A DNA stretch of 64,000 nt from Dyella psychrodurans (GTDB lineage: Bacteria; Pseudomonadota; Gammaproteobacteria; Xanthomonadales; Rhodanobacteraceae). The stretch is from positions 248,001 to 312,000 of the forward strand of contig NZ_QRBF01000004.1 of NCBI RefSeq assembly GCF_003363265.1. Reading direction: 5' to 3'. This document shows positions 12,399 to 27,583 of this stretch, piece after piece (within the stretch, counting starts at the first letter, position 1; every line of letters starts with the position of its first letter). Position numbers and translations under genes: made by a program. The notes beneath the pieces were generated by a model. It did no database searches, was not told the origin of the DNA, and saw nothing but the letters and a program-made list of their open reading frames with translations.

Positions 12399-13114
12399 TC
12401 GAAGGCCGCAGGCTCTGCCGTGTGCGTTGCGGTAGGCTCAGCTTTGTACGATTTATGGATCAAAGACCCCTGCTCAAAATCATGAGATTGAAGTCACCGA
12501 CGCGTCCCCACCTGCATCATCACGAACCAGAAGCGCCAGATGGCGTTAGTCAGATTCTTCACATAGGAGTTACCTGCATAAGTCGACAAGAATATCCGTT
12601 GATTAATGTAAGTGAAGATGCTGCATGGCCGCGTGTATTTTCACGAAGTGTGCGAATACATGCGCCGAGTTGGACACAACATTGGCTTGGAAGACGCAAG
12701 AATCGTTGTAAGCATCGTTTGTAGGGATATCGCCGCGTTCCCATTGAAACGAGTAACAAGCGAGTGAGTGTGGCTATTTGAACCCGAGTACTTTCGTGTG
12801 CATAGTGGTTTGTGTAGCGAATAGGGTGCAGGCACAAGGCCTGCCTGATAAGGGATAAAAATGGAGTTGGCCACGGATGGAGTCCAGGACGTGCGGCTTG
12901 CACCTTCTTGCGCATGGTTTTTCACACGTCTCACTTGCAGCGACAGCGGTCGGCAATTTATTGCGCGCGCAATACGGTTGCTATATCGCGTTGGAGAAAG
13001 TGAAGCTTGAAGCTCCGGATGGCATGCTGCGAAAGCATTTTCTTTCGTATGCATTGAGTCGGCATCCGCGCATCGACCATCTTTTCAACTTTGTTGATCT
13101 TCGTTGCGAATAGG

Positions 13115-13137
13115 CACTGAAAGCAGATCTTTCAGTG
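13115..13137. promoter_or_regulatory. Perfect inverted repeat upstream of virB7 (operator candidate)
   Basis: CACTGAAAG and CTTTCAGTG flank a 5-base centre (CAGAT), ending 56 bases before the virB7 start codon. It is the clearest symmetric element in the 12399-13193 stretch, which otherwise has no convincing gene; a 78-codon frame at 12877-13113 has no support. Its position before the first gene of the virB operon makes it a candidate repressor site. Confidence 0.45.
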
Positions 13138-13193
13138 GATGGACGCTGTTGTCTAGCATTTATCAAGCGAGATGTGACGTGGAAAAGGATTTT

Positions 13194-13658
13194 ATGAAGC
13201 GCGCGCTGATGAGCATTTCGTTGTCGGCGACTGTTGTTCTGGCTGGATGTGGAACGCCATCGCCCAAAGACTTTGGTGGACCTTGGAAGCCGATTAACCG
13301 TTTCCAGGAAAGGTCCACGGCGATTCCCCTGAATCAGAAATATGAGTACTTCGCCGCGCCCATGGACGGGACACTCAAGAGCATGCTCACACGCTGGGCC
13401 AAGGATTCTGGCCTGGTGCTCTCCTACCAGATTTCATCCGATTACACGCTGATTACTCCGGTCACCCAGATTCACACACTGGACATTCACGTTGCTGCGA
13501 ATCAGCTGAATTCGATTTATCGGGCGCAGGGCATTGCTGTGAGGGTCACCGACGGGCAGGTTCAGGTGGTGATGGCGAACTCGAATCCCGCTGCCGCGGC
13601 TGCGGGAAAACCGGCCGAGTCGTTGCGACAAGGCGCACCCGTGGACTCAAAGTCATGA
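13194..13658 (+). CDS. virB7: VirB7: T4SS outer-membrane lipoprotein with N0-type domain
   Basis: A 154-residue lipoprotein: MKRALMSISLSATVVLAGC puts the lipobox Cys at residue 19. The mature N-terminus (KPINRFQERSTAIPLNQ) is the short segment that packs on VirB9. It is followed by a domain of about 80 residues (MLTRWAKDSGLVLSYQISSD with later LDIHVAANQLNSIY) like the N0/STN fold. A large VirB7 carrying an N0 domain is the hallmark of the Xanthomonadales T4SS, unlike the short VirB7 of Agrobacterium. AAAGGA precedes the ATG at 13194. It opens the virB operon. Confidence 0.88.
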   Translation: MKRALMSISLSATVVLAGCGTPSPKDFGGPWKPINRFQERSTAIPLNQKYEYFAAPMDGTLKSMLTRWAKDSGLVLSYQISSDYTLITPVTQIHTLDIHVAANQLNSIYRAQGIAVRVTDGQVQVVMANSNPAAAAAGKPAESLRQGAPVDSKS

Positions 13659-13704
13659 GATCGAAGGATGAAATCGTGTCATTCCACGTTGCCAGGTTTT
13701 GCTG

Positions 13705-14628
13705 ATGCCCATCAAAAAAACATCAAGCCAGAGAATTGACGAGTCCCTGGCGAAGTCGGTCAATTTTGAAGTGACCATGGCGGACATAGCCAAGCGCAGC
13801 GAGCGTCGCGCATGGTTGGTGGCGATGACTGCCATTGCCGTGGCGATGATTCTTATTGGCGGTTACTTCTACATGCTTCCGCTTAAGGAGAAGGTGCCGT
13901 ATGTCGTGATGGCCGACGCGTATACGGGAACCAGTTCGATCGCTCGCCTGACGGATGATTTTACAAACCAACACATCACGACGAATGAGGCAATCAATCG
14001 CAGCAATGTCGCGCATTTCGTGCTGGCGCGAGAATCCTACGACTTGGCGACGATCAATCTGAACGATTGGGCGACGGTGCTGACCATGGCTGCGCCGAAT
14101 GTTGCTAGCGGATACCGGAGTTGGGTATCTCCGACAAATCCAGACGGCGCTTACAAGAACTATGGGAACAGCCGTTCCATACGGGTGAAGATTCTCAGCA
14201 TCGTGCTGATGGGCGGTGGACCGAATCAGACTCCGAAGGGCGCTACCGTGCGCTTCCAGCGCAACGTGTTCAACAACGCCAACGGCGTCAGCCAGCCCTT
14301 GGACAACAAGATCGCCACGCTGATGTTCACCTACAAGCCAGACTTGCAGATGAGCGATCAGTACCGGATCGAAAACCCGCTGGGCTTTCAGGTGAACGAT
14401 TATCGAGTCGATGACGATTACGACACGCCTGCGCCCAGCGAGGTCCCGGGCGATCCCGCTTCCAAGCCGGACGCGCATGGTCAGCCTGCTACCGATACGG
14501 GGACGTCCGATCGAACCGCATCGGCAGCCGTAGCCCAACCGATGGCATCTACGCAAAGTGATCCGGTCTCCGAAGAGAGTCCGGCGCCAGTGTCCAAAAA
14601 CACCGTCAAGGGAGCCGGCAGTCCATGA
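13705..14628 (+). CDS. virB8: VirB8: T4SS inner-membrane assembly protein
   Basis: A 307-residue protein with a short cytoplasmic N-terminus and one membrane helix at about residues 38-60 (AWLVAMTAIAVAMILIGGYF). A periplasmic VirB8 domain follows with NTF2-like features: ARESYDLATINLNDWATVL, then PNVASGYRSWVSP, then VRFQRNVFNN. The last 70 residues are a Pro/Ser/Thr-rich tail, longer than in classic VirB8. The ATG at 13705 is chosen; the preceding TTG at 13699 is in frame but less likely. It overlaps the virB9 start by 4 bases. VirB8 helps build the inner-membrane complex. Confidence 0.9.
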   Translation: MPIKKTSSQRIDESLAKSVNFEVTMADIAKRSERRAWLVAMTAIAVAMILIGGYFYMLPLKEKVPYVVMADAYTGTSSIARLTDDFTNQHITTNEAINRSNVAHFVLARESYDLATINLNDWATVLTMAAPNVASGYRSWVSPTNPDGAYKNYGNSRSIRVKILSIVLMGGGPNQTPKGATVRFQRNVFNNANGVSQPLDNKIATLMFTYKPDLQMSDQYRIENPLGFQVNDYRVDDDYDTPAPSEVPGDPASKPDAHGQPATDTGTSDRTASAAVAQPMASTQSDPVSEESPAPVSKNTVKGAGSP

Positions 14629-15392
14629 TGGGATCAAGCAAACTCATGTTGCTTGGCTTGGCTGGGGCGGCCATGGTCAGTATGGCAGTACCTGCGTGGT
14701 CGCAGGTGGTGCGGCAGTACGATTACAAACCCGATGCCATCTACCCGGTTCGCGCCGGCCTTGGCATCACCACTCAGATCGAGTTGAGCCCCAACGAGAA
14801 GATTCTCGACTTCAGCACAGGGTTCAGCGGCGGATGGGATCTCACCCGGCGCGAAAACGTGTTTTACCTCAAGCCGAAAAACGTCGATGTGGACACCAAC
14901 ATGGTGATCCGCACCGCCACGCATTCCTACATCTTCGAACTCAAGGTCGTCGCCACCGACTGGAAGTCTCTCGATCAGGCCAAGCGCGAGGGTGTGCAGT
15001 ACAAGATCACCTTCAATTATCCGGCCAATGCCAGCTTCTCCGATGAGGTCAACAAGATCGACAAGGCACCGGAGCTGAGTACAGCGTTGGTCAAGGGGCG
15101 GTCGTACAACTTCAACTACGACTACGCGACGCGCAGCAAGGGTGCTGCGTGGTTGCTGCCTGTCTACGTATACGACGACGGACAGTTTACGTACCTAAAG
15201 ATGAGCGACATGAAGCAATTCCCGACCGGAAACTTTCCCGCTGTCTATATGCGTGAGCGCATGCATGGCCAGGATGCCGTGGTCAACACGACGGTCGAGG
15301 GCGACGTCATCGTTGTCCATGGCACCTATCCCTACTTGGTTATCCGTCATGGCGACAACGTCGTGGGCCTGAGAAGGAATACTCAACAGTGA
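14625..15392 (+). CDS. virB9: VirB9: T4SS outer-membrane core component
   Basis: A 255-residue protein with a Sec signal peptide (KLMLLGLAGAAMVSMAVPAW) cleaved near residue 27. The N-terminal domain (YDYKPDAIYPVRAGLGITTQ) joins the inner layer of the core complex. The C-terminal domain (residues about 150-250, NFNYDYATRSKGAAWLLP, then FPAVYMRERMHGQD) binds VirB7 and packs around the VirB10 channel. It overlaps virB8 and virB10 by 4 bases each, so the three core genes are translationally coupled. The length is typical. Confidence 0.92.
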   Translation: MMGSSKLMLLGLAGAAMVSMAVPAWSQVVRQYDYKPDAIYPVRAGLGITTQIELSPNEKILDFSTGFSGGWDLTRRENVFYLKPKNVDVDTNMVIRTATHSYIFELKVVATDWKSLDQAKREGVQYKITFNYPANASFSDEVNKIDKAPELSTALVKGRSYNFNYDYATRSKGAAWLLPVYVYDDGQFTYLKMSDMKQFPTGNFPAVYMRERMHGQDAVVNTTVEGDVIVVHGTYPYLVIRHGDNVVGLRRNTQQ

Positions 15393-16591
15393 GCTCGAAT
15401 ACGCCCAATCAGTCTGGCGACGGCGCCCATCACGAGCATGTCCCGCCGTACGGATCGCAAGCGAGTGGTGGTGATCCATTGGCCGGAAATCCCTATTCGA
15501 CGCAGTACCGGCAAGCCCCCGCACCGGATCTGGATGCGGGGGCACCGGTGTTGCGGTCCTACGACATGGCGCGCATGAATCGGCGGGCGATGGCCTTCCT
15601 CGCAGTGATCGTGGCCATGCTGGGCACGTTAGGATTCTGGTTGTTTCAGAGCGGCTCGAATCGTAACGCGGCGCCAAAACCCAAGCCTGAAACGGTTGTG
15701 GTTCCGGAGGCGCCGACGGCGCCTCCGCTGCCGCCCCAGCAGCCGGTACAACCGCGTCTGCAACAAGCCATCCCGCTTGTCCCCACGCCACCGCCGTTGC
15801 CCGCCACACCTGTTCAGCCAAAGGCTTCGGTGGCGTTGGGATCGACGCTTCTGCAGCGTCGCATGGCTGACGGAAGTGAAGAAGCACAAGGCACTCTCAT
15901 GGGAACCGGATCGCCGGTTCAGCAAGTTGCTGCTGGCCTAGGGGTTCCGGGCAACAGCAATAACATCGTTCCTGATACCCCTACCAGTGCGCAGCCTCTT
16001 ACGGATCCCGACACTCTGATGCTCCGGGGGACATTTATCCGTTGCGTTCTGCAAACGCGCATCATCACGGATATCCCTGGATTCGCGTCCTGCATCGTCA
16101 CGGAACCCGTGTATTCATTCACGGGCCGCCGAATGTTGTTGCCGAAGGGTTCCAAGGTGCTTGGCAAGTATGGTGCGGAGCCCAACGGTTCGCGTGTTGC
16201 CGTCATCTGGGATCGCATCGTGACCCCCAATGGCATCGATGTGAACATGGCGAGCCCGGGTGTGGATGATCTTGGTGGTGCTGGTTACCCAGGCTACGTC
16301 GATTCGCATTGGCCGAGTCGCATCGCTTCCGCTTTGCTGATCAGCATGCTGAGCGACGCGTTCTCTTATGAGGCCGCCGAACACGGTCCACGCACGGCGA
16401 GTGTGACGAACGGCGCCGTTGTGGAAACACCGTTTCAGAGCAATACCGCCGCGACTTTGCAGAACCTCGCGGGCCAGGCTGTACGCAGCTCCGCCAACCG
16501 GCAGGTAACGGTAACCATCAACCAGGGAACCATCGTTGATATCTATGTCGCCAAGGACGTCGATTTCAGCGGTGTAGTGGCTCGTTTCTGA
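15389..16591 (+). CDS. virB10: VirB10: T4SS channel-spanning core protein
   Basis: A 400-residue protein: cytoplasmic N-terminus (about 65 residues), one membrane helix at about 67-86 (AMAFLAVIVAMLGTLGFWLF), and a proline-rich periplasmic linker at about 95-150. The C-terminal TrbI/VirB10 beta-barrel domain spans about 190-400 (LMLRGTFIRCVLQTRIITDI, then SRVAVIWDRIVTPNGIDVN). VirB10 spans both membranes and forms the outer-membrane pore with VirB7 and VirB9. It starts with a GTG inside GTGA overlapping the virB9 stop. The length matches the family. Confidence 0.93.
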   Translation: MSSNTPNQSGDGAHHEHVPPYGSQASGGDPLAGNPYSTQYRQAPAPDLDAGAPVLRSYDMARMNRRAMAFLAVIVAMLGTLGFWLFQSGSNRNAAPKPKPETVVVPEAPTAPPLPPQQPVQPRLQQAIPLVPTPPPLPATPVQPKASVALGSTLLQRRMADGSEEAQGTLMGTGSPVQQVAAGLGVPGNSNNIVPDTPTSAQPLTDPDTLMLRGTFIRCVLQTRIITDIPGFASCIVTEPVYSFTGRRMLLPKGSKVLGKYGAEPNGSRVAVIWDRIVTPNGIDVNMASPGVDDLGGAGYPGYVDSHWPSRIASALLISMLSDAFSYEAAEHGPRTASVTNGAVVETPFQSNTAATLQNLAGQAVRSSANRQVTVTINQGTIVDIYVAKDVDFSGVVARF

Positions 16592-16618
16592 CATTCAAGC
16601 GAAGCAAGCAGCAAGAGT

Positions 16619-17665
16619 ATGGATACTCCAGCCAACATCGCAGAGATTTCCAATGAATTTCTCGACTATCAGTACAAAGTGCTGGGTGTGCGGGAGTTCA
16701 TGGCGTCGCCGGATGTCACGGAGATCTGCATTAACCGCCCGGGTGAGCTGTACCTGGAAACGCACGGTGGATGGCAGCGCATGGAGGTGCCTACGCTTAC
16801 CTTCGAGCGCGCTAGGCAGTTTTGCACGGCGGTCGTAAACGAAAGCAATACCGGGCAGCGCATCACCGATGCCGACCCGGTGGTCTCTTTGACGTTTCCG
16901 ACCGGGCAGCGCGCGCAGTTCGTCATACCGCCCGCCTGCGAAGCGGGTAACGTGTCGATCACGATACGGCTTCCTTCCAAGCAAACGAAGACTCTTGCTC
17001 AATATCAGCAGGACGGGTTCTTCGATCAGGTCCTTGAGGATACGCAGCAGCTCACCGACCAGGATCGTGAATTGCTGGAATTGCGAGCATCCAGGAACTA
17101 CGCCGATTTTTTCAGGAAAGCGGTGCTAAGCAAGAAAAACATCGTCGTATCCGGTGCCACCGGAAGCGGCAAGACTACCTTCATGAAGTCGCTGGTTCAC
17201 CATATTCCCGCCGCGGAAAGATTAGTGACCATCGAGGACGCCCGTGAACTGTTCATCCATCAGCCGAATGTAGTTCACCTTCTCTATTCGAAGGGTGGGC
17301 AGAGCATCAGCAACGTCACGGCCAAGAGCTGTATGGAGGCCTGCCTGCGCATGAAGCCCGACCGGATCATTCTGGCCGAATTGCGTGGAGACGAATCGTT
17401 CTACTTCATCCGCAATTGCGCGTCGGGCCATCCCGGTTCGATCACCAGCTGCCATGCGGGAAGCACGGCTCAGACATTGGATCAGTTGGCTCTGATGGTA
17501 AAGGCGTCTTCCGAAGGCGCGGGACTGGAGTTCGGGACGATCAAACGACTGTTGATGATGACGATTGACATCATCGTGCATATCAAGGTCCACGCAGGGC
17601 GGCGATATATCACGGGGATCGATTTCGACCCGACGCGCAGCCACTCGCCAGACGAGCGGCAGTAA
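16619..17665 (+). CDS. virB11: VirB11: T4SS hexameric ATPase
   Basis: A 348-residue cytoplasmic secretion ATPase of the VirB11/GspE family. The N-terminal domain includes FMASPDVTEICINRPGELYL. The Walker A motif GATGSGKT lies at about residues 179-186, followed by the Asp box (VTIEDARELF), Walker B (DRIILAELRGDESF, near 248) and His box (GHPGSITSCHAGS). VirB11 works with VirB4 to power pilus assembly and switching to substrate transport. It follows virB10 by 27 bases. All catalytic motifs are intact. Confidence 0.94.
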   Translation: MDTPANIAEISNEFLDYQYKVLGVREFMASPDVTEICINRPGELYLETHGGWQRMEVPTLTFERARQFCTAVVNESNTGQRITDADPVVSLTFPTGQRAQFVIPPACEAGNVSITIRLPSKQTKTLAQYQQDGFFDQVLEDTQQLTDQDRELLELRASRNYADFFRKAVLSKKNIVVSGATGSGKTTFMKSLVHHIPAAERLVTIEDARELFIHQPNVVHLLYSKGGQSISNVTAKSCMEACLRMKPDRIILAELRGDESFYFIRNCASGHPGSITSCHAGSTAQTLDQLALMVKASSEGAGLEFGTIKRLLMMTIDIIVHIKVHAGRRYITGIDFDPTRSHSPDERQ

Positions 17666-17698
17666 CAGCGCAAATTTTCGTATCAGGGAGGTCGCAGG

Positions 17699-18592
17699 AT
17701 GCTGACTGGAATGGAATTGCTGACGTGCCCGAACCTGGCGGTCCCGGTCGAGATCATGCATCACGTGGTCGATGTCGAGTCCGGCTACAACCCCTATGCG
17801 ATCGGCGTGGTCAATGGTCAGTTGGTTCGCCAGCCTCAGAGCCTGGACGAGGCACTGGCGACTGTAAAAATGCTTGAGTCCAACGGTTACAACTTTTCCG
17901 TCGGCGTCGCCCAGATCAATCATGACAACTTGGTCAGGTATGGGCTGGAGTCCTACGAGAAGGCGTTCAACCCGTGCCTCAACCTGTCGGTGGGTTCGCG
18001 CATTTTGGCGGAGTGCTACGAAAGCGCGCGAGCCGATTGGGGCAAGGCCTTCAGTTGTTATTACTCCGGCAATTTCGTAACAGGTTTTCGCGACGGTTAC
18101 GTGCAAAAGGTGTACGAATCGATCGGCCAGAGCCTACAGATCGCCAACTCCACGTCCGTGCCGGCTGCCATACCCCTGCGGCAGACTCCCGAACGGACAC
18201 TGGTACACGGCGAACCCATCAGCGTACCCATCGCGGAAGCTGACAGTGCGGCCTACCGAATTGCGATGCGCAGTGTGGCGCTGGATACGGTTGCGTCAGT
18301 GGCTGCGGTAAAACTCAATCCGACGATCATCACGGTTGCGTCCGATCCATCCTCGGCGCAGGCCGCCGCAACGCCGAGTAAAACTGTAGCGCCATCAGCA
18401 CCCGCAAGCACGGCCAGGAATGATGGCGTATTCGTGCCGCAGGTGCGTGGTCCGAGTGATCCATCGCCAGGATCCGCGTCGCCGGCTCGCAACGCACAAA
18501 CGAATGCGATGACGGTCCCGGTAAACCAGCCGCCGGGTAGCGATCCAGCTGATCTTCGTCAAGGAGGTAGCGATGGCGCTTTTGTCTTTTGA
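17699..18592 (+). CDS. virB1: VirB1: T4SS lytic transglycosylase
   Basis: A 297-residue protein with an N-terminal SLT lysozyme-like domain. The candidate catalytic Glu is at residue 27 in HHVVDVESGYNPYAIGVV. The Gly/Gln substrate motif (FSVGVAQINHDNLVRYG) and FSCYYSGNFVTGF follow near residues 65-135. The remaining 150 residues are Ala/Ser/Pro-rich and of low complexity. It locally cuts peptidoglycan so the T4SS can cross the wall. GGGAGG stands 8 bases before the ATG at 17699. No clear signal peptide is visible at this start, which is odd for a periplasmic enzyme. Confidence 0.88.
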   Translation: MLTGMELLTCPNLAVPVEIMHHVVDVESGYNPYAIGVVNGQLVRQPQSLDEALATVKMLESNGYNFSVGVAQINHDNLVRYGLESYEKAFNPCLNLSVGSRILAECYESARADWGKAFSCYYSGNFVTGFRDGYVQKVYESIGQSLQIANSTSVPAAIPLRQTPERTLVHGEPISVPIAEADSAAYRIAMRSVALDTVASVAAVKLNPTIITVASDPSSAQAAATPSKTVAPSAPASTARNDGVFVPQVRGPSDPSPGSASPARNAQTNAMTVPVNQPPGSDPADLRQGGSDGAFVF

Positions 18593-18824
18593 GCCTCTCA
18601 CAGCCAACGCAGCAGTCCGAGCATCCGGCCGCGGGGCTGCATATGCGTGCAGGTGCGTCTCAATGACTAGATACGTATTTCAAATTTTTGCTGCGACGGC
18701 ACCCGATATGAAACAAGTCATGGGGGTCGCTCCAACAAACCGGAACCGGGCCGAGCAGCTATCCCTGGAGCGGAAATCAAACGATGGCCGCGTCTTTTCA
18801 ATCGTGCATAAGGAAATTACGAAG

Positions 18825-19259
18825 ATGACACCAAAAGTTTCTTTCTATGGCGTTGGCCATCCATCCAAGCGTTTGCTCAGCGACATGTTCACGTTCGCGA
18901 TCATCGCAGCTGTGATGATCTTGCCGGGCTTGGCACTCGCGCAGGGGGGAGATACCTCGGGTACGACAACGACTACCTGCGGATTTCTCACCAATGTGCA
19001 GGGCATCCTCAACGCCGTATCGATCGTCGTGGTAACCATCGCTGTGATTTTCACGGGCTACAAGGTTGCCTTCGCTCACGCTCGCATCAGCGAGGTGGCA
19101 CCGGTTTTGATCGGTGCGATCCTGATCGGCGCCGCCAGCCAGATCGCCAAGATATTCCTGGCCGGAAGTGCGGGTGGCAGCGCGTGCAGCGCAGGATTGA
19201 CATCGCATGCGCTGGATCATGTTGCGGCAGTGGCGCATTTGCTGACCGCCTATGCATAA
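18825..19259 (+). CDS. virB2: VirB2: T4SS major pilin
   Basis: A 144-residue pilin precursor. A long signal segment (FTFAIIAAVMILPGLALAQ) is followed by a mature part with the two hydrophobic helices of VirB2/TrbC pilins: VQGILNAVSIVVVTIAVIF, continuing TGYKVAF, and VAPVLIGAILIGAASQIAKI. A basic loop (AHARIS) lies between them. The C-terminal tail of about 30 residues is longer than in Agrobacterium. The frame is open upstream to 18573, but only the ATG at 18825 gives a normal signal peptide, with AAGGA upstream. It overlaps virB3 by 8 bases. Confidence 0.85.
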   Translation: MTPKVSFYGVGHPSKRLLSDMFTFAIIAAVMILPGLALAQGGDTSGTTTTTCGFLTNVQGILNAVSIVVVTIAVIFTGYKVAFAHARISEVAPVLIGAILIGAASQIAKIFLAGSAGGSACSAGLTSHALDHVAAVAHLLTAYA

Positions 19260-19569
19260 GAACGCGCTGTTTCGCGGCTGCACGCGCCCGCCCATGTTCA
19301 TGGGCGTTCCCTATGTCCCGTTCTTCATGGGCGCGTGTGCGTGCTTGTTGATGGCGTTGTATTTCAATCTCTTCTATCTGTTGCTCTTGCCGCCCGTCAT
19401 CTTCGTGATGCGGCAGATGGCCAAGCGCGACGAAATGATTTTTCGTCTACTTGGCCTGCGTCTGCAGTTTCGGACACGGGTGCGTAACCTTCAGCAGAAC
19501 GATGGATTGTGGATATTTACGCCTAACAATCACCGCGGGCAAAAGAAAGAAAAACAGGTCGGCCGGTAG
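19252..19569 (+). CDS. virB3: VirB3: T4SS inner-membrane protein
   Basis: A 105-residue protein with the VirB3 pattern: a short N-terminus (FRGCTRPPMFMGVPYVPFFM), a membrane hairpin at about residues 20-55 (ACACLLMALYFNLFYLLLLP) and a cytoplasmic tail with KRDEMIFRLLGLRL. VirB3 anchors the VirB4 ATPase at the inner membrane and is needed for pilus assembly. It overlaps virB2 and is followed by a strong hairpin before virB4. Confidence 0.88.
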   Translation: MHKNALFRGCTRPPMFMGVPYVPFFMGACACLLMALYFNLFYLLLLPPVIFVMRQMAKRDEMIFRLLGLRLQFRTRVRNLQQNDGLWIFTPNNHRGQKKEKQVGR

Positions 19570-19579
19570 AAAACTCATC

Positions 19580-19597
19580 GCCCTGCCACGGCAGGGC
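19580..19597. repeat. Tight hairpin between virB3 and virB4
   Basis: GCCCTGCC and GGCAGGGC pair perfectly around AC, 11 bases after the virB3 stop and 28 bases before the virB4 start. There is no T-run, so it is not an intrinsic terminator; it may mark an RNA processing or stability point within the operon. Confidence 0.45.
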
Positions 19598-19625
19598 ACA
19601 TCAATCCATCTCGGCAGCATCAACT

Positions 19626-22106
19626 ATGTTCAGTCCAGACGCCCCCATTAGCTATTTCGTCACCGTCTCCACTCACGTTTCGCCTACTGTGTTGAAGACG
19701 ACCGGTGGCGACTTTCTCATGACGTGGCGTTTGGGCGGACTTCCCTTCGTCGGACGCGAAGAGTGGGAGATCGAGCACCGTCACAATACCTTCAATCGCA
19801 TGCTGCAGACGCTGCGCGCGCCGGACTTCACAAACGTGGCGTTCTGGGTGCACGACATACGCCGTCGCCGACGGCTCCAGGACTATAGCAAGTTTGATCA
19901 CTTGTTCAACCAGCAGTTGTCCGACGCCTACTTCGATGCACTGTCCAGTCAGAAGCTCATGCAGAACGAGCTTTACCTGACAATGATTTACAGGCCGACG
20001 GTCAGCGGAAAGCGATTCGTCGAAAAGTCGAGCGATATCGGTCGACTGGAGGCAGAGCAAAGCCAGGCTATCGCGAAGGTGCTGGAGCTGGCGGGAAACG
20101 TCGAGGCCGTATTGAAGGACTACGCCCCCTACCGTTTGGGCATGTACGAGGCCAGTAACGGCATCGTGTTTTCCGAGACGCTGGAGTTCTTCGGTTATCT
20201 GCTCAATCGCATCGATGAGCCAGTGCCGGTCTTGCAGGCGCCGGTGTATGACTATCTACCCGTAAGCAAGCATCGCTTCTCGAGCAAGACCGGCGACTTC
20301 GTCATCACGACGCCCGATGGCGCGAACCATTTCGGCGCGATTCTCAATATAAAGGAATACACGGATGGCACCTATCCGGGCATCTTGAATGGCCTGAAGT
20401 ACCTGGATTTCGAGTACATCATCACGCATTCCTTTAGCCCCATGGGGCGGCATGACGCGCTCAAGGCGCTTGAGCGCACGAAGGGCATGATGATTTCTTC
20501 CGGCGACAAGGCTGTCAGCCAGATCGTCGAGCTCGACAACGCGATGGATCAGCTGGCGTCCGGCAATTTTGTGCTGGGTGAATATCACTTCACCCTCGCT
20601 ATCTATGCTTCCAGCCAGGACGCCCTGTCTCAGCAACTGGCTTCTACGCGCGCTGAACTCTCCAACGCAGGTTTCGTCTCCGTCAAGGAAGACCTTGCCG
20701 TGGCGGCCTCGTTTTATTCCCAGCTACCCACCAACTGGAAGTTTCGCACGAGGCTGGCAAACGTCAGTTCGTTGAACTTTCTTGGCCTGTCGCCGCTTCA
20801 TAACTTCGCCACCGGCAAGAAAGAGAATAATCCCTGGGGGGAATGCGTCACTGTCTTACAGACCACCAATGGCCAGCCGTACTATTTTAATTTTCACGCC
20901 ACTCACCCTGCGGAAAACTCGCTGGGCGAGAAGGCCATCGCCAATACGATGGTCATCGGCAAGTCTGGCACCGGAAAAACCGCGCTGATCAACTTCCTGC
21001 TCAGTCAAGTGCAAAAGATCAAGCCATCACCCACCATTTTCTTTTTCGACAAGGACCGCGGCGCGGAGATTTTCGTGCGCGCGTGTGGTGGCAACTATCT
21101 GGCGCTTGAAAACGGTCGGCCAACAGGATTCAACCCGTTCCATTGTGAGCAAAACGAAGAGAACGCTCAGTTTCTTGCGGATCTGATTAAAGTGCTGGCG
21201 GGCAAGAGCGCCTACAGCGCCCGCGAGGAAGAAGACATCTTCCGGGCCGTCGAAAACATGCTCGACACGCCCACGCATTTGCGGAGCATGACCAATTTCC
21301 AGAAGAGTCTTCCCAATATGGGCGACGACGGCCTGTTCGTTCGCCTGCGCAAGTGGACAGCGGGCAACTCGCTGGGCTGGGTCTTCGACAACCCCGTAGA
21401 CACCATCGATCTGGAAAAAGCCAACATCATCGGCTTTGACTACACCGAGATCATCGATAACCCGGAAGTGCGCGTCCCGGTCATCAATTACCTGTTGCAC
21501 AGGCTGGAGGCGTTGATCGACGGCCGTCCGTTGATCTACGTGATGGATGAATTCTGGAAAATTCTGGATGGCAAAGGCGGCCTGAAGGAATTCGCCAAGA
21601 ACAAGCAGAAGACCATACGTAAGCAAAACGGCCTGGGCATTTTTGCCACGCAAAGCCCGGAGGATGCGCTGGCCAGCGACATCGCGGCGGCGCTGATCGA
21701 GCAGACAGCGACCATGGTGCTTCTGCCCAACCCCAACGCCAGCCGCCAAGACTATATCGAAGGACTGAAGCTCACCGAGGCGGAATATCAAGTGGTCGTG
21801 AGCCTGGACGAACGTTCACGCTGCTTTCTCGTCAAGCAGGGTCATTCATCCTCCGTGTGCCAGCTGAATCTTCGCGGCCTGGACGATGCACTCTCGGTCA
21901 TCTCCGCTTCCACCGACAACATCGAGATTCTGCATGTTGTGCTGAGGGAGTGTGCGGAGACGGAACGTGTCCAGATCGACGATCTTCGACCCGAGCAGTG
22001 GCTGCAGGCGTTCTATGACAACCGCAAGGGTAGTGGCAAGAGCAAGCCACATAGCCAAACGCCGCGCGCCGTAGGTGGTAGTTCGATGACTCGGTCCTTG
22101 CGGTGA
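19626..22106 (+). CDS. virB4: VirB4: T4SS ATPase
   Basis: An 826-residue ATPase of usual VirB4/CagE length. The N-terminal half holds the CagE/TrbE domain (VSPTVLKTTGGDFLMTWRLG onwards). The C-terminal RecA-like domain has Walker A GKSGTGKT near residue 447 and Walker B LIYVMDEFWKIL near 637, followed by the RKQNGLGIFATQSPEDAL segment. VirB4 is the largest T4SS motor and connects inner-membrane complex, pilin dislocation and substrate transport. All motifs are intact and the gene sits directly in the operon. Confidence 0.94.
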   Translation: MFSPDAPISYFVTVSTHVSPTVLKTTGGDFLMTWRLGGLPFVGREEWEIEHRHNTFNRMLQTLRAPDFTNVAFWVHDIRRRRRLQDYSKFDHLFNQQLSDAYFDALSSQKLMQNELYLTMIYRPTVSGKRFVEKSSDIGRLEAEQSQAIAKVLELAGNVEAVLKDYAPYRLGMYEASNGIVFSETLEFFGYLLNRIDEPVPVLQAPVYDYLPVSKHRFSSKTGDFVITTPDGANHFGAILNIKEYTDGTYPGILNGLKYLDFEYIITHSFSPMGRHDALKALERTKGMMISSGDKAVSQIVELDNAMDQLASGNFVLGEYHFTLAIYASSQDALSQQLASTRAELSNAGFVSVKEDLAVAASFYSQLPTNWKFRTRLANVSSLNFLGLSPLHNFATGKKENNPWGECVTVLQTTNGQPYYFNFHATHPAENSLGEKAIANTMVIGKSGTGKTALINFLLSQVQKIKPSPTIFFFDKDRGAEIFVRACGGNYLALENGRPTGFNPFHCEQNEENAQFLADLIKVLAGKSAYSAREEEDIFRAVENMLDTPTHLRSMTNFQKSLPNMGDDGLFVRLRKWTAGNSLGWVFDNPVDTIDLEKANIIGFDYTEIIDNPEVRVPVINYLLHRLEALIDGRPLIYVMDEFWKILDGKGGLKEFAKNKQKTIRKQNGLGIFATQSPEDALASDIAAALIEQTATMVLLPNPNASRQDYIEGLKLTEAEYQVVVSLDERSRCFLVKQGHSSSVCQLNLRGLDDALSVISASTDNIEILHVVLRECAETERVQIDDLRPEQWLQAFYDNRKGSGKSKPHSQTPRAVGGSSMTRSLR

Positions 22107-22123
22107 CGATGGAGGAATGAACG

Positions 22124-22885
22124 ATGAAAAAGACGATGCAAAAGAAGAGGTGTTCCGGTGTTGGCAAGGTGCGAATTGCGCTTGTCATATCGTGCGGAGT
22201 CGGTGTGTTTTCGGGTTCAGCGAGCGCGCAATGGGCGGTCATCGACATGACCAATATCCAGACAAATGTGGCTGGATTTGCAAAGCAGCTCGCGCAAACC
22301 GTTCAGCAATATCAAACTGAATTACAGCAATACGCTCAGCTGTTATCCAGCGTCCAGGGACTCAACACAGGCATGTCACTGCTGCCGAACCAATTGCAGC
22401 CGATTAGTGACCCTAATTCCTTGATTCAGGCCAATTGCTCCGGTGCTTCCGGCAACGGTCTGCTCGGAAACGTCATGAACAACCTCACTTCGTTCATGAC
22501 GCAGTCCATAACGCAGAGTCAGCAGCAGATCTGCGCGCAGATCGTCTCCACGGAGGTCGACAAATATAACAAGACCGTGGCGATGCTCAATCAAATGAAC
22601 ACCTATAACACTATGTTTCAGCAGGTCCAGCAGGTGGGGCAGGCGGTCAGCACGCTGGCGGACTCTGGGCGAGCCAATAACCAAGCACAGGTCTATAGCA
22701 GTGCCCTTGCCACCCAAATGTCCAATTGGCAAGCGCAAATGCAGGCCGATGACGCCGTCATCAAAACGCTCGAAGAGCAGCAAATGATTTTGGCGCGCGT
22801 GGCGTTGAATGGAAGCAACGGTTCCATCCTGAGCGATGCGATGCCCGACTCAACATTTCAGAACGTCATGTCGGGCATTCAGTAA
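22124..22885 (+). CDS. virB5: VirB5: minor pilus-tip protein
   Basis: A 253-residue exported protein with a signal peptide of about 38 residues ending SGSASAQ. The mature part is almost all alpha-helical and Gln-rich (FAKQLAQTVQQYQTELQQYA; later YNTMFQQVQQVGQAVSTLAD), matching VirB5/TrbJ-like pilus-tip proteins. It lies between virB4 and virB6 as expected. VirB5 proteins vary greatly in sequence and may take part in target contact, so the assignment rests on composition plus position. Confidence 0.82.
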   Translation: MKKTMQKKRCSGVGKVRIALVISCGVGVFSGSASAQWAVIDMTNIQTNVAGFAKQLAQTVQQYQTELQQYAQLLSSVQGLNTGMSLLPNQLQPISDPNSLIQANCSGASGNGLLGNVMNNLTSFMTQSITQSQQQICAQIVSTEVDKYNKTVAMLNQMNTYNTMFQQVQQVGQAVSTLADSGRANNQAQVYSSALATQMSNWQAQMQADDAVIKTLEEQQMILARVALNGSNGSILSDAMPDSTFQNVMSGIQ

Positions 22886-22971
22886 TTTGGCGTCCACATT
22901 CGGATCTGTTCAGCGCGGCGAAAACGCCAACATGGAAAGAAGAAGGCAATGAAGCGAATGGGAAATCTAAC

Positions 22972-24042
22972 ATGAACAATTTTGTCTTCTTCACACTTAT
23001 CTATGCTTGGCTGACAAACAAGATTAACGCGTTCGCGAGCGACCTCATGGGTCGCGTGATGACATGGGTGGCAGGCATTGCCCTGGTGTTGGTGACGCTG
23101 TGGATACTTATTACGGGCTATCGCATCATGACCGGCCAGTTACGCGAACCGCTGATGGCCGTAGTCGCTAACATGGCGCGTATCGTGGTCATCATCTCCG
23201 TTGCGACTTCCATGTCGATTTTCGGAGCCAATCTGAATACCTTCCTGACAAGTGACCTCAGCAATGAAATCAATCAGGTCGTGAGTGGGAGCAGTGATAG
23301 CGTCGTCCAGGACATCGACAAAAATCTTGCGCTGACCGAAGTGGCCATGAGCGCTATCGACTCGGTGCAGTTGGCGCATGGGGTTGCCGCCGATCCCGAT
23401 ACGGCCAATGACAAGAATCGCGCCTCGTTGATGACTATGCTCGGTACCGCTGGGCCACCCATGACCGCCGCCGTCATGCTTTTGATGTATCAGTTTACGA
23501 TTGCATTGTTTATCGGTCTCGGACCGTTATTCATCTTGTGCCTGATTTTTGAGCAAACCAAAAGCTTGTTCCACAAGTGGTTGATGTACGGCATCGGTAC
23601 ATTGTTTTCGCTGGCGGTACTCAACGTCGTCACGTCCATGGTGCTCCAGCTTAGTACTGGTGTGGCAGCGGGCATGTGGGCTGCGACACTCATTCCAAGT
23701 TTCACTCCCGGGATGACTGAAGGTTTGTCACATCAAGCGCTGGAGCAGGGCGGTATTGGCATGTTGTTGACGCTTTTGATCATCACAGTGCCACCCATGA
23801 CCGCAAATTTCTTTCAGGGGACGTTGGGAGGTTTTATGCACTACTCGGCATTCAATCCTTCATCCGGAAGTCCGGGGCCGCAGGGGCAACCTCCGGGGTC
23901 GCCAAGAGCTCCGAGCGCACCATCACAAGCGAATACGGGAACAATTGCCGGCAATAACGGCAATTCCGCACGCTGGTCAGGTAATACAGGTCCGACTCCT
24001 GTGGATGGAATCAAATCGGGGCGACCTAATGCTTTTGGGTAG
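22972..24042 (+). CDS. virB6: VirB6: polytopic T4SS inner-membrane protein
   Basis: A 356-residue TrbL/VirB6-type protein with about six membrane helices (for example WVAGIALVLVTLWILITGYR near 25-45 and FTIALFIGLGPLFILCLIF near 170-190) and a large periplasmic loop between. The segment LFIGLGPLFILCLIFEQTKS, continuing LFHKWL, is the conserved family core. The final 65 residues are Pro/Gly/Ser-rich. VirB6 shapes the inner-membrane channel. It closes the canonical virB run; the next genes are accessory. Confidence 0.88.
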   Translation: MNNFVFFTLIYAWLTNKINAFASDLMGRVMTWVAGIALVLVTLWILITGYRIMTGQLREPLMAVVANMARIVVIISVATSMSIFGANLNTFLTSDLSNEINQVVSGSSDSVVQDIDKNLALTEVAMSAIDSVQLAHGVAADPDTANDKNRASLMTMLGTAGPPMTAAVMLLMYQFTIALFIGLGPLFILCLIFEQTKSLFHKWLMYGIGTLFSLAVLNVVTSMVLQLSTGVAAGMWAATLIPSFTPGMTEGLSHQALEQGGIGMLLTLLIITVPPMTANFFQGTLGGFMHYSAFNPSSGSPGPQGQPPGSPRAPSAPSQANTGTIAGNNGNSARWSGNTGPTPVDGIKSGRPNAFG

Positions 24043-24084
24043 TTCTTCGGATTGCAGCCTGATATGTACGGGAGCTCATCATTG

Positions 24085-24591
24085 ATGAATGTGGTAGCAA
24101 GCAAGCTGTTCGGCTGGATGTGTTTGGTGGTGTTACTACTTCCACTTTCAGCAGGAATTCTCCACGCGCAGGAGCAAGTGGGGCCGTGTCCGCCTGGCAT
24201 GAGCCAGTATCCAAGCCCTGATGGCGTTCCTTCGTGTGGGGCTATGTACGATCAAGGAAAAACTTCGCATTGGGTAACTCAATGGGGGGCGCTCGCGACC
24301 GACTTCGCGCATCATGCTGGTGGAGCCGCTGTAAACAAGCCAGACGAGAATGAAGCGAAACGTGCAGCGATTGAGGAATGTGTGTCAAACGGTGGATTGC
24401 AATGCAGAGTAGAGATCACCTACGCAAATCAGTGCGTTGCACTCGTGGAGGGCAACTTCGGACATAACTCCACTCGAGCCGCGACAATTGATGCTGCTGT
24501 AGAGATTGGAAAAAAAGTATGCACTGAGTCTGGCGATACCAATTGCCTCGCTACTTACACCGCTTGTAGTTTGGCTAAATGGTTGCGATGA
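24085..24591 (+). CDS. DUF4189-like exported protein
   Basis: A 168-residue protein with a signal peptide (LFGWMCLVVLLLPLSAGILH) cut near residue 28. The core matches the DUF4189 pattern: WGALATDFAHHAGGAAVNKP, then A-rich helix and EECVSNGGLQCRVEITYANQ, continuing C. Repeated cysteine pairs would be oxidised in the periplasm, and a second helix/cysteine unit (IGKKVCTESGDTNCLATYTA) follows. It lies 42 bases after virB6 and before the effector genes. By position it may be an immunity or accessory factor of the secretion system; DUF4189 has no firmly known function. The ATG at 24085 gives the best signal peptide. Confidence 0.68.
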   Translation: MNVVASKLFGWMCLVVLLLPLSAGILHAQEQVGPCPPGMSQYPSPDGVPSCGAMYDQGKTSHWVTQWGALATDFAHHAGGAAVNKPDENEAKRAAIEECVSNGGLQCRVEITYANQCVALVEGNFGHNSTRAATIDAAVEIGKKVCTESGDTNCLATYTACSLAKWLR

Positions 24592-25004: not shown

Positions 25005-25598
25005 ATGAAAGCACTCATTGCTTCGTTACTAGTACTTTCGACAACCATGCTCCTTGCATCTTGCAAGGACACCCAGAACGTCGACGCCAAGCTCAATCCA
25101 CACCCGATTCCCTACGAAATCACGTTGATCATCGACGGTGCACCTGGACCGTTCGATTCGGTGGGTGGATTTATGCAATACGAGGTCACCAACTTAGATT
25201 GCGTGCCAGAAACGGGTGGTCCGTTCAACCCATTGCGACTTTCGCCTAAAGCAGATCCGCGCATCATATTTCAGAAAATGTCGAACAACGTCTACAGAGG
25301 AACGGTCTACGTGGGCTATTTCCAGGACGAAGATTACTTCGGGCTTGGGGTGTGCCATTGGTCGTTGAATGCGGCAACCGTTGAATTAAAGATCAACAAG
25401 CTAACGATGGTTTCGTACTTGGATCCAGAGCAGCTTCCCGCCCAGAAACCCGTTACAACATATTTTGTCCGAGAAGATTACCTGAACAACGATTTAGAAC
25501 GTGGTTCGGTCGGAGAGTTGGGGCGAACAAAATACCCACCTAACCGTCAAGACAGCATTTTCTCAATAGCCCTAACACCTAAGGACATTGCACCGTGA
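25005..25598 (+). CDS. Lipoprotein, probable immunity protein of the lipase effector
   Basis: A 197-residue lipoprotein: MKALIASLLVLSTTMLLASC has a LLASC lipobox with Cys at residue 20. The mature part is beta-rich with a YEITLIIDGAPGPFDSVGGF strand pair and two further cysteines. Its stop overlaps the GTG start of the lipase effector by 4 bases, so the two are translationally coupled with the lipoprotein made first. In known X-T4SS systems, toxins acting in the envelope are neutralised by periplasmic lipoprotein immunity proteins encoded next to them. The immunity role is inferred from that precedent; the fold is not recognised. Confidence 0.7.
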   Translation: MKALIASLLVLSTTMLLASCKDTQNVDAKLNPHPIPYEITLIIDGAPGPFDSVGGFMQYEVTNLDCVPETGGPFNPLRLSPKADPRIIFQKMSNNVYRGTVYVGYFQDEDYFGLGVCHWSLNAATVELKINKLTMVSYLDPEQLPAQKPVTTYFVREDYLNNDLERGSVGELGRTKYPPNRQDSIFSIALTPKDIAP

Positions 25599-27262
25599 CG
25601 CTTACTGCGAAGGAATACGCACTGCTCTGCAAGGATAGCTACAACGAACACACCGATCAGCAGAAACTTGTTATGGGTGATGCTTCCTATACGGTCCTTG
25701 ATCACTACAGTGACCCCATCACCGGCTATCAGGGTGTTGCTTATCAACGTGAGGACACCCATGAAGTGGTGGTCGTCCATCGTGGCACCGAGCTGAGTTT
25801 TTTAGATATTGCTACCGATGTTGGTATGGTGACGGAAGGTATCAACGTGCAGATACCTCATGCTATCCGTTTTTCCCAAAGAGTCACGGAAAAAGCGGAG
25901 GCCGATGCTGCCTCCAAGAGCTACGCGCTGCCACCCATCACAACCGCTGGTCATTCTCTCGGCGGTACGCTTACTGAACTTGTCGCTCACAAGATGCATT
26001 GGCAAGGCGTCACCTTCAACAGCTACGGCGCCGTAGACCTTGGCTACGACATCCCCCAAGGTGGAACGCAAGTCATCAACTACGTGCGCGTCACCGATAT
26101 GGTCAGTGCCGCGAGCCATCATTTCGGCAAGGTCGTCGAGCTTGCTACACAAGACGACGTTGATGCGCTGCGCAAAGCCGGTTATGTCGATGCGGCCACG
26201 CCAGACACGCTACGTAATCCCTGGGCTGCGCTGAGCCGGGGTGCTCATGCCATCGCCAACTTCGCGCCCGACAACCCCAGCCTTAAGCCGTCTGACCTCT
26301 CGCCAGAAAACGAGGCGCGCGCCCATGCGCACCTTCAAGCCATACACCTGCTGCGCGAAGACGTGCAAGCCCTGCGCGCCAATACACTCTCCTTGCCATG
26401 GGAGTTGCAACACAAGGAGGTCACGACAGCCAAGCTCGCGATGGGTGCTGTCTCCGCCGTTATGGACGGCGATTTCAATAAGACTCGTCACATCACCACG
26501 CTGGCCGAGCATCGCGCTTTGGCTAATACGGGCCATGCGTTGGATACCACCACCCACACGGCATGGCTCAGCATAAGCGCCATCGACCAAGCTGGTGCAT
26601 ACGTAGCCGATCAGATCAAAGATGCCGCGCGCGAAGTCAATCATGGCCTGGACCACGTGGGCCGCGCGATGGGTAGCGAGGCGTTGGAGCACGGCGCCCA
26701 ATGGGTTGCGCGAGACCTTTCACATGGGACGGATCAGATCAAGGGCGTGGTCATGTCCCACGTTTCCCAAAGCATGAGCGCCATACCAGATATGGCGCGC
26801 CCGCCCATCAGTCATAGTTCGACATTGCCGCAACGCCTGGATGACCCCACGCATCCTGATCACGCCATGTACCTGCAAGCCCGCGAAGGTGTGCACAAAC
26901 TCGACGCCGCATGCGGCCGCATACCCGATCAGCGTAGCGACCAGTTAGCCGCTGCACTAGTCGTCGCCGCGCGCCGCGTTGGTCTCACGCAGATCGAAGA
27001 AGTGGTCCTGCATCGCGATGCTGAAACCATTGCCGCACGGCAGCCTACCCCCACTAGCGCGGACTGGACGAAGGAATTTCTCAGGCCTACGCATGCAGAC
27101 GTCCCCACGGTGCCCTCGTTAAACACACCGATCGAGCAGAGCAGCCAGCAGTGGGGGCACGTTATGCAGCAGAAGCAGATAGAGCAGGCGCAGGCGCACG
27201 AGCGACAACTAAGCCAGCAGCAAGAAACCTTGAAGCAAGCCAGCCACGGCTTCACTCGCTAG
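25595..27262 (+). CDS. T4SS lipase effector with C-terminal XVIPCD-like domain
   Basis: A 555-residue protein without signal peptide. Residues about 1-200 form a lipase-3/Mbeg1-like hydrolase: VVVVHRGTE near 60, the nucleophile elbow AGHSLGG with Ser121, and candidate triad residues Asp168 and His175/176 in RVTDMVSAASHHFG. The middle is helical and Ala/His-rich. Residues 415-555 match the XVIPCD secretion signal read by VirD4 in Xanthomonadales: HPDHAMYLQAREGVHKLDAA, then QRSDQLAAALVVAARRVGL, NTPIEQSSQQW and a Gln-rich tail. It probably hydrolyses phospholipids of rival bacteria. Start GTG at 25595 with TAAGGA upstream. Confidence 0.85.
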   Translation: MTLTAKEYALLCKDSYNEHTDQQKLVMGDASYTVLDHYSDPITGYQGVAYQREDTHEVVVVHRGTELSFLDIATDVGMVTEGINVQIPHAIRFSQRVTEKAEADAASKSYALPPITTAGHSLGGTLTELVAHKMHWQGVTFNSYGAVDLGYDIPQGGTQVINYVRVTDMVSAASHHFGKVVELATQDDVDALRKAGYVDAATPDTLRNPWAALSRGAHAIANFAPDNPSLKPSDLSPENEARAHAHLQAIHLLREDVQALRANTLSLPWELQHKEVTTAKLAMGAVSAVMDGDFNKTRHITTLAEHRALANTGHALDTTTHTAWLSISAIDQAGAYVADQIKDAAREVNHGLDHVGRAMGSEALEHGAQWVARDLSHGTDQIKGVVMSHVSQSMSAIPDMARPPISHSSTLPQRLDDPTHPDHAMYLQAREGVHKLDAACGRIPDQRSDQLAAALVVAARRVGLTQIEEVVLHRDAETIAARQPTPTSADWTKEFLRPTHADVPTVPSLNTPIEQSSQQWGHVMQQKQIEQAQAHERQLSQQQETLKQASHGFTR

Positions 27263-27307
27263 GAAACAACTCATGCGCGCCATGGATACGGCCATTCCTT
27301 TCTCTGA

Positions 27308-27545
27308 CTCGGCGATCCGGCGAGATGCGCGTCGATCCGGCAGCAGAACCAGATCAACACCTTCTGCATGGCCCGAGGGCAGCAGGTTGCCTCTCAATCC
27401 AAGACTTGGCACCTACGCCACTACCAGGCATCACTGCTTTAACCCTGTATCAGCCAACTTGTATGTTCAGGTTTGTTCTTACGGCTTTGAGCGGGGTGAG
27501 GGTCTTAGGCATCGCTCGCACCTATCAATCGACGAAGAAATGTAA
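27308..27545 (+). pseudogene. Frameshifted remnant related to the small exported protein at 24664
   Basis: After a TGA at 27305 the frame reads IRQQNQINTFCMARGQQVAS and QS up to about 27400. One extra A at 27401-27402 shifts it, and the other frame continues RLGTYATTRHHCFNPVSANL and YVQVCSYGFERG to the stop at 27543-27545. Removing that base joins both halves into one protein that aligns with the intact 24664 product (FC..., LGTYTITSNYCFN, SANLFSRVC). No start codon or signal peptide remains upstream. It lies just after the effector gene. Confidence 0.6.
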
Positions 27546-27583
27546 CCACGCACATTCAATTTACTTGCGATCAACATATAACG

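Follow-up and report, generated by a model that had tools for sequence, protein, structure and literature searches.

An X-type virB locus of Dyella psychrodurans without a linked virD4, and a distant VirD4-effector cassette as its probable source of a coupling protein

Which coupling protein serves a virB locus that has no virD4 beside it? The question is raised by a stretch of 64,000 nucleotides from Dyella psychrodurans (assembly GCF_003363265.1, contig NZ_QRBF01000004.1, here C11; C11:248001-312000, forward strand; hereafter the window), which holds a complete virB set of the X-type type IV secretion system (X-T4SS). The genome is a 4.54-Mb draft in 16 contigs, in which C11 is a 396-kb contig (396,333 bases). 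PMC6536674 characterizes X-T4SSs by a chromosomal location, a VirB7 ending in an N0 domain, a full set of twelve class A subunit genes and XVIPCD-bearing effectors encoded in the genome, and describes an AQGP-rich extension of VirB8 in addition. We consider it probable, at roughly 0.72, that the X-T4SS of the window lost its linked virD4, that a VirD4 of a separate lineage (O-VirD4), encoded in an effector cassette on contig C15, supplies the coupling protein, and that VirD4-effector cassettes move as modules. Genomes, contigs and fetched loci are cited by handles beginning with G, C and L, the source genome being G000.

The open reading frame (ORF) list and Pfam matches place a collinear, uninterrupted virB7-8-9-10-11-1-2-3-4-5-6 set of the X-T4SS type at 13194-24042, bearing out an earlier sequence-only reading that had reported a complete virB1-virB11 set in X-T4SS order. 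The eleven VirB proteins are intact, as that reading had also claimed: all 11 frames are open, and VirB4 (GKSGTGKT) and VirB11 (GATGSGKT) each have a Walker A motif. The features are as follows, in window positions unless a locus is named.

12399-13193, no strand: the 795 bases 5' of virB7, without virD4 (tblastn, ORF list)
13194-13658, plus: virB7, lipoprotein of 154 residues with putative N0-like C-terminal part (lipobox, sub-threshold TcpQ)
13699-14628, plus: virB8 with a 69-residue C-terminal extension (PF04335, 145 bits)
14625-15392, plus: virB9 (PF03524)
15389-16591, plus: virB10 (PF03743)
16619-17665, plus: virB11 ATPase (PF00437, Walker A)
17699-18592, plus: virB1 transglycosylase (PF01464)
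18573-19259, plus: virB2 pilin, coordinates of the listed ORF, whose start is probably too early (PF04956, residues 105-194)
19252-19569, plus: virB3 (PF05101)
19626-22106, plus: virB4 ATPase (PF03135)
22124-22885, plus: virB5 (position; sub-threshold DUF4141)
22972-24042, plus: virB6 (PF04610)
24052-24591, plus: DUF4189 protein (PF13827)
25005-25598, plus: small secreted protein, candidate for immunity to the lipase (function suggested by location of homologs)
25595-27262, plus: lipase-like effector of 555 residues with canonical XVIPCD, label T1 (PF20410)
27263-27583, no strand: slot of the linked virD4 in many relatives, right after the last effector, vacant (tblastn)
L006:9647-11470, minus: virD4 of the C15 cassette (PF02534)

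As the sequence-only reading had stated, the 795 bases upstream of virB7 contain no virD4, and tblastn showed that the gene is absent downstream too. Searching the window and the 15 kb to its left by tblastn gave neither a virD4 nor a remnant of one (best E 0.076). A virD4 just left of the window, which would have made the locus ordinary according to that reading, was thus ruled out by inspection of those 15 kb, and a remnant inside the window was ruled out by the same best E value. The expectation that virD4 precedes virB7 describes most Xanthomonas and Stenotrophomonas loci (PMC6536674), but it does not hold for the family: in 53 family genomes with a linked virD4 (within 30 kb on one contig), the gene lies downstream in 48 and upstream in five. 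The gap upstream of virB7 is therefore uninformative, because the linked virD4 of the family usually stands downstream of virB6, where in many relatives it follows the last T1 effector. Since no trace remains in the window, the loss of its linked virD4 is something that we infer.

A genome-wide search gave a single PF02534 protein, at C15:156261-157685, in keeping with the earlier expectation that a coupling protein must exist elsewhere. This VirD4 has an intact frame of 607 residues (PF02534 301.7 bits, residues 96-570) with Walker A (APTRSGKT) and Walker B (LLVLDEF) motifs, and 174 kb or more separate its gene from the virB set, given the extents of C11 and C15 (208,091 bases). All twelve class A subunit genes are therefore present in the genome, eleven in the window and virD4 on C15. 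The suggestion that the locus is incomplete stands for the locus itself but not for the genome, where virD4 sits in an inserted effector cassette. A protein on contig C1 was rejected as coupler, as it matches PF10412 and TraG-D_C without PF02534; this protein, a coupling protein of the TraD/TrwB type, and another TraG-D_C protein (G000:C1, L005:8893-10788 and 15564-18545) probably belong to an integrative element.

The C15 cassette of about 6.0 kb is an insertion. It comprises virD4 followed on the same strand by genes for proteins of 278, 143, 431 and 291 residues, of which the 431-residue protein (P0002) is a GH19/peptidoglycan-binding effector ending in a second label domain, T2, and the 278- and 143-residue secreted proteins are candidate immunity proteins. 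An alignment of 20 kb around the cassette to the fdhD region in nine relatives of the genus put the end of the left flank near 5.7 kb and the start of the right flank near 11.7 kb of L006. Seven of the nine relatives lack the cassette at this site, their flanks meeting within 42-241 bp; the remaining two, G011 and G014, have other DNA of 6.0 and 7.2 kb, respectively, between the same flanks. GC content is 0.559 in the cassette versus 0.629 and 0.614 in the flanks. Elsewhere in its genome, G008 carries a VirD4 77% identical to that of C15 together with a T2 effector, and Variovorax sp. J22R24 encodes a VirD4 scoring 804.8 bits against the C15 protein, followed by a T2 effector. The 291-residue gene after the GH19 effector (L006:5882-6757) has no assigned family, and L106 and L109 have homologs of it behind their T2 effectors. 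By eye, the other inserts at the abc-fdhD junction of two relatives (L201:3331-9340 and L202:3912-11129) contain a TonB-receptor-like gene in one case, and in the other case an RHS-repeat protein along with a transposase-like ORF. In the betaproteobacterium Variovorax sp. J22R24 (L164:6153-10848), the order is O-virD4, a small lipoprotein-like gene, the T2 effector and one more small gene.

Separation of virD4 from virB is recurrent in the family. Of 233 family genomes surveyed, 70 encode an X-type VirB4 (74-87% identical to that of the window, its own excluded): 53 with a linked virD4, 15 with virD4 only elsewhere and two without a VirD4 at threshold. Three more genomes have VirD4 without VirB4, making 73 with X-T4SS parts. 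In eight of the 15 unlinked genomes (G000, G005, G011, G064, G150, G170, G172 and G193), virD4 and virB4 are at least 40 kb apart by contig position or extent; in the other seven a contig break could conceal linkage. The machine is unlinked from virD4 in all three genus members that have an X-T4SS (G000, G005 and G011), and an intact virB operon is also present in O-VirD4-only genomes whose assemblies are complete or in long contigs. In G064, a truncated linked virD4 (L174:8924-9787) lies beside X-type virB genes; its 150 C-terminal residues are 73-80% identical to linked genes of the C lineage described below, and an intact O-virD4 lies 1.1 Mb away. Replacement of the linked virD4 by O-virD4 is likely in this genome, because the truncated gene remains beside the virB genes. 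The truncated gene shares its reading frame with a sequence resembling an immunity-type gene.

The VirD4 proteins show a bimodal distribution of identity to the C15 protein (51-77% and 41-46%). In a tree of 79 VirD4 sequences, an O clade of 36, including the C15 protein, separated from a C clade of 43 with a Shimodaira-Hasegawa-like approximate likelihood ratio test (SH-aLRT) value of 100. The tree took in all 36 O places. Of the C places, 18 of the 22 unlinked and 22 of the 48 linked ones were included, together with places in G098, G116 and G124; G098, the second copy of G116 and G124 were treated as linked, since effectors lie upstream of their virD4, the arrangement of linked loci, though their virB4 is on another contig, and G074 was left out of both the tree and the pairing set. 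In total, 106 VirD4 places were found (O unlinked 31, O linked five, C linked 48, C unlinked 22). Both lineages occur in eleven genomes, and 15 genomes with VirB4 have O only, counting G175, which has a second PF02534 protein below the identity screen. Linked C genes mostly stand right after XVIPCD effectors, and unlinked genes of either lineage mostly right before one. The O lineage of Rhodanobacter, Luteibacter and Dyella relatives is mostly encoded in virD4-effector cassettes. In the membrane region, O- and C-VirD4 pairs from the same genome are no more alike than pairs from different genomes.

The label at the end of P0002 was compared with the canonical one by means of two models, T1 seeded with the XVIPCD of the window effector and T2 with the end of the GH19 effector, applied to the fetched loci. 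T1 found 101 ORFs, T2 37, and both models nine, in which T1 precedes T2 at separate positions (L093, L094, L097, L098, L100, L102, L103, L108 and L125, the T2 part sometimes preceded by a peptidoglycan-binding part). Outside these nine dual ORFs cross-matching is slight, two T1 proteins scoring 14.1 and 20.3 bits with T2. Profile comparison by hhalign (probability 95.5, 20% identity) points to distant kinship. PF20410 does not match P0002 up to E 10, and it matches nine of 38 T2 proteins, the number carrying a separate T1. Judged by sequence, T2 is a second XVIPCD-like domain missed by Pfam PF20410, and it is predicted to share the XVIPCD fold: the AlphaFold model of T2 (predicted local distance difference test score 90.6) is closest in structure to the two XVIPCDs that have been solved, 7r6s (TfcB, VIA Z 9.7) and 7mu9 (XAC2609, VIA Z 5.7), the next row scoring 3.7. 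Foldseek with this model returned nothing at E 0.001, and the T2 profile gave one chance-level match against PDB sequences (E 0.85). The 38 T2 effectors scanned carry antibacterial-type domains (ten Tle1-like phospholipase, four lipase 3, three glucosaminidase, one GH19 and 18 peptidoglycan-binding 1). T2 occurs in 38 of the 233 family genomes, 27 of the 29 O genomes versus 11 of 204 others; among genomes with X-T4SS parts the figures are 27 of 29 versus 11 of 44 (p 7e-9). A VirD4 ORF is present in 17 of 19 named T2 loci, and ten loci (L184-L193) have T2 effectors without a VirD4 in the fetched stretch.

The lineages differ in the labels beside them, each VirD4 being paired with the nearest same-strand effector within 7 kb. 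For the unlinked O genes, 31 in number, the partner is a T2 effector in 27 cases (26 downstream and one upstream; eight dual) and a T1-only effector in none, while four genes have no effector; the 18 unlinked C genes in the set comprise 11 with T1, five with T2 and two with none (Fisher p 7.6e-7, genes having an effector). Four of the five linked O genes have T1 upstream and T2 downstream, and one has neither. The five C-clade T2 cases fall in one subclade of six (SH-aLRT 99), which suggests two or more origins of T2 pairing. These five VirD4s (L120, L121, L125, L128 and L129) include four of 765-790 residues as counted from the first start codon. Over 31 O pairs, VirD4 and the adjacent T2 co-vary (r 0.53, 0 of 2000 permutations), which joint inheritance explains equally well. 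A strict one-to-one pairing of lineage and label is not supported, because O-only genomes still hold T1 effectors: nine in G172, five in G150, four in G170 and one in the source genome. No other strong PF02534 match exists in these four genomes, where G172 has one weak match (36 bits) and G170 two O genes. Either O-VirD4 also reads T1, or the T1 effectors of O-only genomes are stranded.

Building on the computed gene content, insertion, lineage, co-location and predicted fold, we infer a mechanism in which O-VirD4 would dock on the VirB complex of the window, would recruit the GH19 effector with its T2 label, probably along with the lipase of the window and its T1 label, and would hand these effectors to the channel for secretion into rival bacteria, with killing as the result. 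Several observations weigh against this reading. The window effector carries T1, the label usual with the C lineage, and in a T1 tree built from few columns its label is nearest to that of the in-locus effector of G005, not to those of other O-only genomes. T1 labels were counted in 55 of the 233 genomes, chosen by VirD4 class together with five genus members without the system; in a rank test on 47 of these, excluding three without VirB4 and the five negatives, the median was one label in 15 O-only genomes versus six in 32 others (p 1e-4), and this deficit could reflect loss of T1 export. Within genus g22 alone no such difference was found (p 0.66). Moreover, no VirB4 was found in any of the three genomes with cassettes tested for it (G002, G008 and G069), and the Variovorax sp. 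J22R24 genome has no X-type VirB4, its best match reaching 37% identity; the presence of a cassette thus does not prove its use. In G069, O-virD4 and a T2 effector (L089:8991-13179) lie beside virB4 fragments and a virB7-like ORF, where PF03135 finds no VirB4.

A rival possibility is that the X-T4SS of the window is decaying, its own coupler lost, its T1 lipase stranded and the C15 cassette serving only its own T2 effector or only immunity against kin. We regard this as unlikely, even though the cassettes without VirB4 or X-type VirB4, the presence of only one T1 and one T2 label in the source genome, and the O-only genome G011, in which no T1 label is left, would all fit it, since the eleven virB frames are open, VirB4 is 74-87% identical to that of 69 other family genomes, and other O-only genomes (G172, G150 and G170) have kept several T1 effectors. 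It is far less probable that O-VirD4 belongs to a different, conjugative T4SS and is merely the best PF02534 match: the TraD/TrwB-type protein with its TraG-D_C neighbour in the source genome and the other VirB4s of the Variovorax genome (37% identity) speak for such a system, but the cassette holds an effector, no relaxase-like gene is among its identified genes, its neighbours are an ABC transporter and fdhD, T2 has a predicted XVIPCD fold, and the only VirB4 of the source genome by PF03135 is the window's own. Least credible of all is that an assembly in 16 contigs has separated virD4 from virB artificially, because the genes on either side of the cassette adjoin each other in nine relatives, and virD4 lies at least 40 kb from virB4 in seven further genomes. 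Loss of the linked virD4 and supply of the coupling protein by the C15 cassette remains our preferred explanation.

The individual VirB assignments differ in their basis. VirB8, VirB9, VirB10, VirB11, VirB1 (with an SLT domain), VirB2, VirB3, VirB4 and VirB6 match Pfam above cut-off. VirB5, with a sub-threshold DUF4141 match alone (26 bits versus a cut-off of 30), and VirB7, with a sub-threshold TcpQ match alone (19.7 bits versus 27, E 9e-4), are identified mainly by position, VirB7 also by its lipobox (LAGC) and its size of 154 residues, within the published X-T4SS range of 130-185 (PMC6536674). At the position of the published [T/S]EIPL motif (PMC6536674), this VirB7 has TAIPL. The VirB8 extension, counted from the end of the Pfam match, consists of 43% A/Q/G/P, which is under the Xanthomonadales rows (53-73%) and inside the range of the other rows (32-45%) of the table in PMC6536674. 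Downstream, the DUF4189 gene follows virB6 in many related loci, and homologs of the small secreted protein stand immediately 5' of lipase-type effectors. The neighbouring effector does carry an XVIPCD, the VirD4-reading domain that the sequence-only reading had recognized; its PF20410 match (79.7 bits, residues 416-520) is the only one in the genome. Directly after it, 27584-29593 encodes a protein of 669 residues that seems to have a signal peptide and matches neither Pfam nor NCBIfam models.

A parallel is offered by the orphan VgrG/effector islands of type VI secretion systems, where the component that chooses the cargo is carried along with its toxin and immunity genes at a distance from the main cluster. 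That component is a spike in those islands, but a T4SS coupling ATPase in the present case. The X-T4SSs of Xanthomonas citri and Stenotrophomonas maltophilia (PMC6536674, PMC6759196) share the one-operon virB7-to-virB6 order, the N0-like part of VirB7 (putative here, from a sub-threshold match) and an XVIPCD effector beside the locus with more effectors elsewhere. However, their virD4 lies in the locus, whereas that of D. psychrodurans lies far off in an effector cassette and belongs to a lineage whose identity to the linked VirD4 of relatives is 41-46%. The S. maltophilia GH19 effector TfcB (7r6s; PMC11253643) matches residues 4-208 of P0002 in its GH19 domain (E 3e-60), and its C-terminal domain resembles the T2 model; unlike TfcB, P0002 has an intervening peptidoglycan-binding domain and a T2 end without a PF20410 match. 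More generally, T2 and XVIPCD (PF20410, 7mu9) are alike in C-terminal position, glutamine-rich end and predicted fold (over 75 residues in the comparison with 7mu9), but their models match different ORFs apart from the nine dual proteins. No report of orphan VirD4-effector cassettes or of a second XVIPCD class was found in the open-access literature searched; some T2 effectors may already be shown among those of Luteibacter and Dyella in the effector figure of PMC6536674.

Collectively, mobile VirD4-effector cassettes with a second label class are a variant of a known machine. The chances seem about even that the bacteria-killing T4SSs of this group have interchangeable couplers, in that self-contained, mobile cassettes of virD4, immunity genes and a labelled toxin fit into a VirB machine already present and can stand in for a resident virD4 that has been lost, the two labels acting as two addresses and tandem-label effectors being loadable by either coupler. 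If the preferred explanation is true, cargo choice in a T4SS would be a swappable, horizontally moving module, and a class of antibacterial effectors missed by PF20410 is indicated in the 38 genomes with T2. The natural sets of couplers, labels and dual-label effectors would also allow VirD4 specificity to be studied directly.

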